Shown: piece after piece, positions 3,217-45,389 of the stretch
How the letters are laid out: each line of letters begins with the position of its first letter
Numbering within the stretch: position 1 is the stretch's first letter
Program-made: the position numbers and the translations under genes
DNA from: an uncultured Prevotellaceae bacterium
GTDB lineage: Bacteria > Bacteroidota > Bacteroidia > Bacteroidales > Bacteroidaceae
Assembly (NCBI GenBank): GCA_900316315.1
Contig: ONCK01000001.1
Location: forward strand, 62,001-126,000
Length of the DNA stretch: 64,000 nt
Direction of reading: 5' to 3'
Notes under the pieces: model-generated
Told to the model about the DNA's origin: nothing
Database searches by the model: none
The model's input: the letters and a program-made list of their open reading frames with translations, nothing else

Positions 3217-4131
3217 CTACTGTATCTCTACCTGTGGCTTGTCAAGTTGGTACAGGCGGTTGCGGTTTACTTGGAGTACGCCTTTGACCCCTTTGAACTT
3301 TTCGATTGTCTCATCCAGCGTCCATTTGTCCGGCTTGCGAAGTGCCACAGCTGGGAGAATCGAGTACGTATATACCACTTTGGCGCCCCACTTCTTGGCC
3401 GCCTTGAGCAGAGATCGCTTGCCCACCTTCTCATCGTAGTGAATGATCAGCGTAGAAGGGTCGTAGAGCTTAGCGTCCAGACTGTCGTGACGCGGCAAGC
3501 GGATATAGGGACGCGAAAAGAGCTGCCGCAGTGAGTCTGCCTTGCCCTGATTGACTGAAGACCGCATCAGGGCATGGTCTTTGTGGCAAGTACCCTCGCC
3601 CTGACCACAGGCTGTACCTTTCTTCTCGCAAGTCATACCTTCTTTCTGGCAGGCCGTGCCCTTCTGGCCACACGCTGTACCCTTCTTCTCGCAAGTCATA
3701 CCTTCTTTCTGGCAGGCTGCGCCCTTCTGATGGCACGCTGTACCCTTCTTCTCGCAAGTCATGCCATCTTTCTGGCAGGCTGTGCCCTTCTGGCCACACG
3801 CTGTACCTTTCTTTTCGCAAGTCATACCATCTTTCTGGCAGGCCGTGCCCTTCTGGCCACACGCTGTACCTTTCTTCTCGCAAGTCATACCTTCTTTCTG
3901 GCAGGCTGTACCCTTCTGGCCACACGCTGTACCTTTCTTCTTGCAAGTCATACCATCTTTCTGGCAGGCTGTGCCTTTCTGATGACAGTTTGCAACTTTT
4001 TGCTGACAAGCAGTATCGCCTTTCCGGCATGTCGTATCACTCTGATGGCAGGCCGTTTCGGCGCCACAGGACTGGCTCCATCCCAGCATTGGCAGGGTAA
4101 GGAGCATAAGGCTAATTATCCATTTCATCAT
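3217..4131 (-). CDS. Secreted cysteine-heptad repeat protein with propeptide-like C-terminal domain
   Basis: 304 residues with a clear signal peptide (residues 1-20, cut near GWS-QS). Residues 22-182 hold 24 cysteines; after the first pair (22, 28) every one is exactly seven residues from the last (28, 35, 42 ... 182). The heptads have forms such as TACGQKG, TACQKEG and MTCEKKG, and three heptads make a 21-residue super-unit repeated about six times. Each repeat is rich in Lys, Gly and Gln and has almost no large hydrophobics. Residues about 226-294 look like the inhibitor I9 / subtilisin propeptide fold (beta strand LIIHYDEK, helix KSLL..AKKWGAKVV, YSILPAVALRKP, helix, GVLQVNRN), but no protease domain follows. 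Metal binding, redox buffering or a disulfide ladder are all possible; function is unknown. A promoter box lies four bases before the ATG. Confidence 0.85.
   Translation of the reverse strand: MMKWIISLMLLTLPMLGWSQSCGAETACHQSDTTCRKGDTACQQKVANCHQKGTACQKDGMTCKKKGTACGQKGTACQKEGMTCEKKGTACGQKGTACQKDGMTCEKKGTACGQKGTACQKDGMTCEKKGTACHQKGAACQKEGMTCEKKGTACGQKGTACQKEGMTCEKKGTACGQGEGTCHKDHALMRSSVNQGKADSLRQLFSRPYIRLPRHDSLDAKLYDPSTLIIHYDEKVGKRSLLKAAKKWGAKVVYTYSILPAVALRKPDKWTLDETIEKFKGVKGVLQVNRNRLYQLDKPQVEIQ
3616..3993 (-). repeat. 63-bp tandem repeats, six units
   Basis: In-frame tandem repeat inside the cysteine-rich gene. Each 63-bp unit encodes three cysteine heptads, and copies differ mainly by single bases (Glu/Asp and Gly/His swaps), which implies recent duplication or gene conversion. 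A partial seventh unit runs to about 3586. Confidence 0.9.
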
Positions 4132-4135
4132 GCCG

Positions 4136-4143
4136 CAAAGATA
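4136..4143 (-). promoter_or_regulatory. -7 promoter box directly before the cysteine-repeat gene
   Basis: TATCTTTG on the minus strand ends only four bases before the ATG at 4131, so transcription should start at or next to the start codon, giving a leaderless or nearly leaderless message. Confidence 0.5.
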
Positions 4144-4338: not shown

Positions 4339-6105
4339 CTATGCCTTGTCGAGCACCGCCAGGATATCGTCTGCGATCTGCTCGTCCAGCAGGTGGTTGT
4401 CCTTCATCAGCTGCTGTACGTCGTAGCGGTCGTAGAGTGCCTTGCGTACGCCAAAATTGATCACGCGCATGGCTGTCGGTCCGTAGTAGCGGGCGATGCG
4501 CTCACCGAAGCCGCCGTCCAGGCTGCCGTCTTCGAGCGTGGCAACAACCTGGTGTCCGCTCTCCAGCGACTGGAGCATTTGTTCGTCTACGCCGCTCAGA
4601 TAGCGTGGATTGATCAAGGTAGCATCGATGCCGCGGGCGGCGAGCAGTTGCTTGACCTTGAGACCTTTCTGATAGAAGTCACCGACGGCGATGATGGCGA
4701 CTCGGCTCCCCAGATGATCAAGTTTGAACTTATTGATTTCATCATAGTCCTTGTCGACCTCTTGGTCCGTATGCAGAACGCCCCACTCGGGCACACGGAT
4801 AGCTACAGACCGCTTCTCCTGCCTGATAGCCCAGGCTTCCATGGCGATAAGTTCCTCGTAAGTCGTGGGAGCAAGGTAGATCAGATTGGGAATATGGCTT
4901 AGCATCGGTATGTCGAAGAAACATATATGCGTGAAATCGCTCATGCCGTAAATAGAGGAACCGATGACGTTGATCACAGCGGGGTTGCCATTGACAGCGA
5001 GGTCCTGGCTGATCTGGTCGTAGGTGCGCTGTAGGAAGGTGGCATAGGTACTGTATACGGGGTGGGCGCCGCGCTTGGCCATGCCGGAGGCGAGTGCGAC
5101 AGCCTCCTCCTCGGCGATGCCGACGTCGATGTATTGTTGTCCAGCCGCCTTGCGCTCTTCGGGGCCAAAGCCTATGGCCGCGGGCACAGCAGAAGAGATG
5201 CAGACCAGCTTGGGGTCGCGCTTGATCTCCTCGCGGAGCCACTTACCCAGCATCAAGGGCATATATTCGCCGCCCCGAGACTGATCCCGCAGGCTGCCGT
5301 CCTCGATGTGGAAGGGCATGCTCCAGTGCCAGCGCTCCTTATTCTCGACTGCGGGCTGGAAGCCGTGACCCTTTTCAGTATGGATATGGACTACGATGGG
5401 GTGGCCGGTATCCTTGACGCGCCGGAAGGCCTGGACCAGCTGCAAGACGTCGTTGCCCTGCTCCACATAGAGATAGTCGAGGCCAAAGGACTTGAAGAAA
5501 TTGAGCGGACTCTGCCCCTGGGTCTCGCGGAGCTGGCGCAGATCGCGGTAGAGGCCTCCGTGGTTTTCGGCGATGCTCATCTCGTTGTCATTGACTACGA
5601 TAATCAAGTTGGTTCCCAGCTCCGAGACAGTATCAAGTCCCTCAAAGGCCTCACCGCCCGAGAGGCTACCGTCACCAATTACGGCCACGATATTCTCATG
5701 TCCGCCCATCACGTCACGGGCTTTCATCAAGCCGCTGGCAAGCGAGATGGAGGTCGAAGTATGTCCGATTTCAAAGTTGTCATATTCGGGGTTTTCGGCC
5801 GGAGAGCTGTAGCCCGAGATGGCGTCCATGCTCTGCGCGTCGATAAAGCCCTTGGCGCGGCCCGTAAGTATCTTGTGAGGATAGCTCTGGTGGCTTACGT
5901 CAAATACTATCTTGTCTGTAGGAGCATCAAAGACGTAGTGTAGAGCCACCGTGGCCTCGGTAAATCCGAGATTGGGGCCGACGTGTCCGCCGTGGATGCT
6001 TACGCGGTTGAGCACGGCCTGACGTACTTCATCTGCCACCTGTGGCAGGTCGGAGAGGGCCACTTGGTTGAGGTCCTTGGGGCTGTTGATTTTTTCGAGA
6101 AACAT
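4339..6105 (-). CDS. dxs: 1-deoxy-D-xylulose-5-phosphate synthase, short form
   Basis: 588 residues from the ATG at 6105; the longer reading upstream crosses the promoter box at 6146-6153 and is rejected. It is a transketolase-like enzyme binding thiamine diphosphate (GDGSLSGG at 144-151 to N172) and would condense pyruvate with glyceraldehyde 3-phosphate to give the first intermediate of the MEP isoprenoid pathway. It is about 40 residues shorter than classical DXS, and the usual IAEQHAV segment reads IAEEEAV. Bacteroidetes often carry such a short second copy beside a full-length one, so this may be a paralogue with another role. It follows the CoA-transferase gene on the same strand but has its own promoter. 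Superfamily is certain, exact reaction less so. Confidence 0.8.
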   Translation of the reverse strand: MFLEKINSPKDLNQVALSDLPQVADEVRQAVLNRVSIHGGHVGPNLGFTEATVALHYVFDAPTDKIVFDVSHQSYPHKILTGRAKGFIDAQSMDAISGYSSPAENPEYDNFEIGHTSTSISLASGLMKARDVMGGHENIVAVIGDGSLSGGEAFEGLDTVSELGTNLIIVVNDNEMSIAENHGGLYRDLRQLRETQGQSPLNFFKSFGLDYLYVEQGNDVLQLVQAFRRVKDTGHPIVVHIHTEKGHGFQPAVENKERWHWSMPFHIEDGSLRDQSRGGEYMPLMLGKWLREEIKRDPKLVCISSAVPAAIGFGPEERKAAGQQYIDVGIAEEEAVALASGMAKRGAHPVYSTYATFLQRTYDQISQDLAVNGNPAVINVIGSSIYGMSDFTHICFFDIPMLSHIPNLIYLAPTTYEELIAMEAWAIRQEKRSVAIRVPEWGVLHTDQEVDKDYDEINKFKLDHLGSRVAIIAVGDFYQKGLKVKQLLAARGIDATLINPRYLSGVDEQMLQSLESGHQVVATLEDGSLDGGFGERIARYYGPTAMRVINFGVRKALYDRYDVQQLMKDNHLLDEQIADDILAVLDKA

Positions 6106-6145
6106 AGTTTGTTGTATGATAAGTCTGAATGTCTGATTTCGGGTG

Positions 6146-6153
6146 CAAAGGTA
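6146..6153 (-). promoter_or_regulatory. -7 promoter box for dxs
   Basis: TACCTTTG on the minus strand, 40 bases before the dxs start. No TTG box at the expected distance. Confidence 0.5.
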
Positions 6154-6308
6154 CTGCCGGCCAGTTGGCGGGGAGGTATATCTATTACGGGTATAGCAAC
6201 CAGATTTACGGGTGGCAGACCGCACATGCGGAAGCCAGTCATCTCCCCACGGGGACAGAAGGGCCGGCTATCGGCTTTTTCTCAATAACTATATCAGAGA
6301 TGTGGGCC

Positions 6309-26407: not shown

Positions 26408-26700
26408 AAATATTTTTTATAAGAAAAATGCGAGGCAGATTTCCCGGCCTCTGTCCGAAGGCGAAAAACAAAATTTACTCAAATCGCCTTTGTAACTTAC
26501 TGAAAGCCAACGAATTGCGAACAATATTTGACATTCTCGCAACTAGCTGGCTATCAGGCGATAACAACTCGCCTTCCAGTTTAAACTACATCCGACCTAG
26601 TTTAAATTACATCCGGCCTTGTAGCGCGAACAAGGCGACTTGTCATCTCTACATCGGACCTATTTCGAGCAGCATCTCAGATTTATTATATAAAAAAAAC
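26408..26700. repeat. Dispersed non-coding element, copy B
   Basis: Second copy of the ~290 bp element seen at 12103-12395, in the same orientation. The 58-nt hairpin is kept at equal length: CTGAAAGCCA (26500-26509) with TGGCTATCAG (26548-26557). Inner TTGCGA/TCGCAA and outer ATCGCC/GGCGAT pairs are stronger than in copy A. Two full phased units follow (cores reading CATCCGACC at 26589 and CATCCGGCC at 26610). The ends are AT-rich (TATTTTTTATAAGAAAAA and TTTATTATATAAAAAAAA). Confidence 0.65.
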
Positions 26701-45305: not shown

Positions 45306-45389
45306 GGCCGCTTCCTGTTTTAACAAGGTCGGATGTAGTTTAAACTAGGTCGGATGTTGTTTTAACTAGGTCGGATGTTGTTTTTGACC
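45306..45389 (+). repeat. 21-bp phased intergenic element, four units (best copy)
   Basis: Cores GGCCGCTTC (45306), GGTCGGATG (45327), GGTCGGATG (45348) and GGTCGGATG (45369) lie exactly 21 bp apart. A full unit is GGTCGGATG followed by the palindrome TAGTTTAAACTA. Just after, ACGTCCGACC (45390-45399) repeats the core on the opposite strand. Units in other gaps share sequence and period. Confidence 0.85.

Follow-up and report, generated by a model that had tools for sequence, protein, structure and literature searches.

A gene for a cysteine-rich protein

The window, by which we mean the whole stretch of 64,000 nucleotides that was analysed, contains on its minus strand a gene whose product joins a long cysteine array to a C-terminal domain resembling a protease propeptide (Table 1). 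Stronger evidence for a gene than the frame bias of the repeats is the conserved domain, which is located downstream of the array in the same frame. The N terminus of the protein, MMKWIISLMLLTLPMLGWSQSC, was inspected by eye and looks like a signal peptide with cleavage just before Gln20, and a cut before glutamine corresponds to the Q-rule outlined for Bacteroidetes (PMC10653852). The protein is thus apparently exported as a Sec/SPI substrate of the Q-rule type, in line with the first-pass annotation, which had called it secreted. A T9SS C-terminal sorting domain was not among the Pfam matches listed for the protein up to an E-value of 10. Together with gene content and the T9SS-tail match of the genome's S8 protein, the Q-rule fit suggests a member of Bacteroidales.

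Four bases before the first ATG the sequence TATCTTTG is found (window 4136-4143, minus strand), resembling TAnnTTTG, the -7 promoter motif of Bacteroidetes. With a motif of this type only four bases ahead of the first ATG, the transcript may be leaderless or may start lower. The neighbouring genes identified by Pfam encode a metallophosphoesterase and a DXP-synthase-like enzyme, and for the third neighbour no Pfam match over its cutoff was obtained. The DXP-synthase-like gene (window 4339-6225, minus strand) is present in three of the 19 genus genomes at an E-value of 1e-50, the copies outside this genome being 54% and 44% identical, and is possibly an unusual or acquired copy; since it occurs in so few of these genomes, it was uninformative as an anchor for synteny.

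Table 1. Features of the cysteine-array gene and its product, with positions in the window.
Feature	Residues	Window position	Strand	Basis and remarks
Gene, 304-residue protein		3217..4131	-	open reading frame; in-frame C-terminal domain kept in relatives; third-position variation in the repeats
Likely signal peptide	1-19	4075..4131	-	read by eye; cut LGWS/QSC, giving an N-terminal Gln
Cysteine array, 24 Cys, period 7 from residue 28	22-185	3577..4068	-	
Six consecutive 63-bp (21-residue, three-heptad) units	46-171	3619..3996	-	first unit diverged
Linker	186-222	3466..3576	-	low model confidence: pLDDT of 44-56 in ten-residue blocks across model residues 1-40
Subtilisin-propeptide-like domain	226-292	3256..3456	-	AlphaFold2, Foldseek, VIA-align, PDB profile search; Pfam PF22148 below cutoff
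C-terminal tail	293-304	3220..3255	-	pLDDT <50 from model residue 109

The cysteine array and its repeat units

The cysteines keep the strict seven-residue phase that the first-pass annotation had described: they are located at residues 22 and 28 and then at every seventh residue from 35 to 182, that is, with one gap of six followed by 22 gaps of exactly seven. A DNA pattern for eight cysteine heptads matched 16 times in the window, always inside the array, and never in 100 dinucleotide shuffles. Tandem Repeats Finder reported a 63-bp unit in 6.0 copies with 91% matches, which agrees with the near-identical 63-bp units noted earlier; the array had also been called expanding, and here past duplication is the only part that stands. 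Throughout the copied units the heptad types GTACGQK, GTACQK[DE] and GMTCEKK alternate with few substitutions, and this order of three types is missing from the older N-terminal heptads. Residues 28-185 lack I, L, F, W and Y altogether and are poor in other hydrophobic residues. The arm is hydrophilic, rich in Lys, Gly and Thr, and carries one thiol per heptad (24 thiols per 164 residues for the whole array, with neighbouring Lys).

Elsewhere in the window there are two short 21-bp tandem arrays, at positions 26578-26619 and 45316-45384. Their units run in opposite orientations but are almost alike, agreeing at 19 of 21 bases once rotated, which suggests a dispersed 21-bp repeat family.

Comparison of the array with known families

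No described family, repeat families included, matched the array above its curated cutoff, and a PHROGs search with the window protein returned nothing up to an E-value of 1, which agrees with the first-pass annotation, in which no family with this layout was known. The Pfam family TX13_rpt stayed below its cutoff of 40.3 bits with the full protein (E 0.00031, 21.4 bits) and with the array alone (E 7.3e-05, 23.4 bits), and the match is probably compositional; DUF3659, Hormone_5, ragweed allergen, C_rich_MXAN6577 and PRK13108 were all below cutoff as well. Metallothioneins contain C-x-C or C-C clusters, whereas all cysteine gaps in the window array are 6 or 7, and the beta-helix of insect antifreeze proteins has a T-C-T period of 12 residues, in contrast to the periods of 7 and 21 found here. 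Both families had already been dismissed in the first-pass annotation. The cysteine repeats of rusticalin, summarised in the literature as Cx6Cx6-7Cx8Cx7CC (PMC6339383, PMC7379824), were rejected as a match because the spacing differs and the protein is of animal origin. Among titles and abstract openings on heptad or cysteine repeats, on propeptide-like inhibitors of Bacteroidetes and on disulfides in anaerobes, neither this protein nor a bacterial family of this kind was described.

The nearest likely protein analogue among the matches listed is an ORF from Bradymonadales (L135), which like the window protein has cysteines at period 7 (19 of them) in a long open frame; this frame runs past the fetched DNA and has its start outside the sequence read. 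Unlike the window array, it is built from a four-heptad unit, is acidic by look, has a different sequence and is followed by other downstream regions. The first 166 residues gave a below-cutoff Pfam match only.

Other candidates were discarded. The second match in the genome itself (E 0.00187) has stops inside. Searches with tblastn yielded nine plasmid records with 19.5-29.8% identity and one phage record with 34.2%; all ten lie within query residues 23-210 and none extends over the tail domain, and they were taken as low-complexity matches, two of the ten having been examined by their annotation. A scan of the genome contig collection with the full protein gave no confirmed match. In family genomes, the matches at ten loci are confined to the array part (L013, L019 and L021-L028; 21-32% identity, some with stops), and these were taken as unrelated short-period or low-complexity repeats.

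Copying of the array and possible selection on it

The exact spacing is partly automatic whenever a 21- or 63-bp unit duplicates without indels. More informative are the outer heptads, which have diverged (28, 35, 42, 49, 175 and 182): there the cysteine is fixed and each of the other six places varies. Across all 23 heptads cysteine is the sole invariant place, encoded by TGC 16 times and by TGT seven times, with no replacement. Among the five units that are clean (Cys 70 to 154), third codon positions account for eight of the 11 variable columns, and 26 synonymous differences were counted to 24 nonsynonymous ones in the coding frame, compared with 2/48, 3/41, 19/25, 0/44 and 0/44 (synonymous/nonsynonymous) in the other five frames. 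If the diverged first unit (Cys 49) is included, third positions make up 10 of 18 variable columns, and the coding frame (38/71) is less clearly ahead of the best of the other five (31/65). With the degenerate last unit added, little bias is left (16 third, 13 second and 13 first positions in 42 columns); this unit was set aside because it is out of register.

As a control measure we used the synonymous share over the whole array in all six frames, which for the window array is 0.20 in its own frame and 0.15 in the next best. The control set comprised 91 open cysteine-heptad frames from 79 of 116 other loci, among the matches listed; the cysteine frame was the best of six in 21 of these frames, 30 reached a share of 0.20, and 12 of the 91 did both. 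Since 12 of the control frames do as well as the window array, the frame bias does not by itself prove that the arm is under selection. DNA that reads as cysteine heptads is common: a ten-cysteine pattern was found in at least 116 stretches of the genome contig collection, 79 of the 116 listed hold an open frame, and 80 of the 91 frames, whose standing as genes was assessed by the frame-bias measure, are shorter than 200 codons. The constant cysteines argue modestly for selection on the arm.

A C-terminal domain resembling subtilisin propeptides

A structure prediction for the tail had been suggested in the first-pass annotation, and the single-sequence AlphaFold2 model indeed gave a propeptide fold, with the order beta-alpha-beta-beta-alpha-beta. 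The best solved structures for this model, in Foldseek and in VIA-align, are Tk-subtilisin propeptides. The proposed resemblance to a subtilisin propeptide without a protease is therefore upheld, with a ferredoxin-like fold over approximately residues 226-292 and no protease domain. A profile of 17 sequences compared with the PDB pointed to the same group (Tk-SP, a Thermococcus subtilisin-like protease, E 0.00045; Tk-subtilisin propeptide, E 0.0062). None of the Pfam families PF05922, PF22148 and PF18237 reaches its curated cutoff with the window domain: PF22148 scored 18.3 bits against 21, PF18237 scored 15.8 against 26.5, and PF05922 was unlisted at E-values up to 1. At the same threshold, 12 of the 17 domain members scanned match PF22148 (best E 0.00016) and seven match PF05922 (best 0.0025). 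The model of the full-length protein was uninformative (mean pLDDT 44.7, no part at 70).

In subtilisin propeptides, Glu and Asp residues are reported to cap helices of the protease (PMC6993865), and the propeptide tails are reported to bind like a product (PMC10580911). At the capping place the relatives retain V-x-x-D. Counted by eye, D occupies it in 20 of 21 sequences, and two positions before it E or D is found in nine, N in eight and M, Q or S in four. The conserved Asp aligns with Asp63 of the 69-residue Tk propeptide, which places the end of the propeptide at D+6. Eight of the 21 sequences end there, one ends at D+7, three at D+13 (the window protein included) and nine at D+16, counts that are not independent because L012/L014/L015, L007/L011 and L008/L009 are near-identical. 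In the alignment the window protein extends seven residues past the end of the Tk-subtilisin propeptide, and it carries Asn289 and Asn291, an N-x-N in place of the acidic E/D-x-D pair. The window protein thus differs from the rest of its family at the very places that matter, with Asn291 for Asp, the N-x-N and a 13-residue tail instead of one of six.

Relatives of the domain

The domain was detected in 17 of 201 family genomes (E 1e-5), in five of 19 genus genomes including this one, and in five of 393 order genomes, of which this genome and G005 also count among the 17. A second, weak match in the genus search (G040) sits in a long unrelated frame. The full-protein search reached 23 of the 201 family genomes at an E-value of 0.001, some of them via the array part only. 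The tail domain is therefore no isolated case but belongs to a sparse family, whose small members occur in related genomes.

Twenty relatives were read, 16 from alignment A1 together with L148, L149, L169 and L170. The cysteine array is absent from all 20 frames, which contain one to five cysteines each (the frame of L009 is cut by a contig end). The highest identity to the window domain, 49%, was found for L149 from the same genus, in which the array is absent too, and in a tree of 22 domains support was too weak to place the window protein. By eye, several relatives resemble lipoproteins (for instance L010, L148 and L169), and others look like SPI substrates. In five relatives (L007, L008, L009, L011 and L170) a single open frame leads from a DUF1294 membrane protein into the domain, with DUF1294 assigned by Pfam for L007 and by look for the other four. 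Two adjacent, diverged matches to the domain family (L171 and L172) occur in a single genome from another family of the order (G459) and were excluded from the counts, one and the same frame having been taken for both.

Candidate protease partner and thiol chemistry

The genome contains one S8 gene, a 783-codon open frame on another contig, which has a weak, below-cutoff match to a T9SS tail (PF18962, Por_Secre_tail). S8 genes were found in 153 of the 201 family genomes overall, in 17 of 17 with the domain versus 136 of 184 without it (overlap taken by eye; one-sided p 0.008, two-sided 0.014, uncorrected for kinship). This association is weak, since kinship is uncorrected and S8 genes are common. 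No subtilase was seen beside the window gene, nor, by eye, within up to 1.5 kb on each side of the same-genus relatives L145, L147, L148 and L149. When the domain profile was compared with the genome's own S8 protein, over 90 residues around its start and as one sequence, nothing was found. Models for VKOR and DsbB had no match in the genome and matched in three and six, respectively, of 14 control genomes; their absence among the matches weakens a disulfide role for the arm; other oxidants may be present.

Discussion

Stand-alone propeptide-like inhibitors described so far include POIA1, the yeast proteinase B inhibitor, Arabidopsis SPI-1, TgMIC5 and SUB1-ProM, all of them eukaryotic as presented in these reports (PMC6993865, PMC10580911). 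The window domain shares with the I9 inhibitors of MEROPS and their mimics the small propeptide fold without a protease, and may share the capping place and a C-terminal tail that would point toward the active site (PMC6993865, PMC10580911). It differs from the I9 inhibitors in that its sequence is below the Pfam cutoffs and its inhibition is predicted. The propeptides of Tk-subtilisin, Tk-SP and fervidolysin (PF18237, PF22148) are parts of a protease precursor, whereas that of the window protein is not. We know of no cysteine array in any of the named stand-alone inhibitors.

Our tentative preference is for a stand-alone subtilase inhibitor carried on a lengthened polythiol arm that is crosslinked or bridged by metal, a reading that we consider possible. 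The C-terminal domain of the exported protein would mimic the propeptide of subtilisin-like (S8) proteases and would most likely dock on a subtilase in trans, in the manner of the stand-alone I9 inhibitors. The arm would have begun as an older heptad array and then been lengthened by copying of the 63-bp, three-heptad unit. Its thiols might crosslink covalently or via metal, giving a multivalent inhibitor, and the arm might hold this inhibitor at the cell surface or in the matrix, standing in for the lipid anchor with which several relatives appear to be equipped. The more far-reaching version, in which the arm is a new class of repeat, selected and variable in length, that networks the exported inhibitor at the surface and replaces the lipid anchor, appears clearly unlikely. 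The overall interpretation of the first-pass annotation, a secreted inhibitor or chaperone on a disulfide or metal-binding rod or else a redox or metal sponge, is retained for export, the unmatched array and the propeptide-like tail.

A crosslinking or anchoring arm is favoured only slightly over a neutral repeat or a metal sink. The array could be a 21-bp/63-bp minisatellite captured by a linker that tolerates it, near-neutral in length, with the tail domain alone doing the work. The abundance of ten-cysteine stretches with mostly short open frames, the control frames that equal the frame bias and the absence of the array from the relatives are all as expected from such a capture; the cysteine as the only invariant heptad place, even in the diverged outer heptads, and the predominance of third-position variation in the five clean units speak against it, and we hold it to be rather doubtful. 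The arm could also serve as a thiol or soft-metal sink (for Zn, Cu, Hg, or reactive sulfur and oxygen species), the domain only folding or placing it. The density of thiols with neighbouring Lys would suit this role, and with DsbB and VKOR unmatched in the genome the thiols might stay reduced. However, the array is without C-x-C or C-C and its spacing is fixed at seven, and the neighbours named by Pfam are the metallophosphoesterase and the DXP-synthase-like enzyme, the third being unmatched over its cutoff, so that a sink seems unlikely to us.

Alternatively, the array might fold into a rod, such as a solenoid whose coil spans 21 residues, with three seven-residue faces and stacked columns of cysteines, as the regular alternation of three heptad types through the copied units would allow. 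The full-length model nowhere at pLDDT 70, the older N-terminal heptads without the three-type order and the scarcity of hydrophobic residues in the arm make a rod the least probable of these explanations, and indeed improbable.

Whichever role the arm has, this is a real and unusual protein, with a known kind of domain that belongs to a sparse bacterial family and an arm unseen in the relatives examined, and its function is inferred throughout. It draws attention to free-standing mimics of subtilisin propeptides as a sparse family in bacteria, and to one member that has acquired a long cysteine arm with strict phasing. Should the family inhibit subtilases, it would offer a regulator of the exported proteases of these bacteria that can be tested, and if the arm is functional, it would represent an unusual design for joining proteins via regularly spaced thiols.
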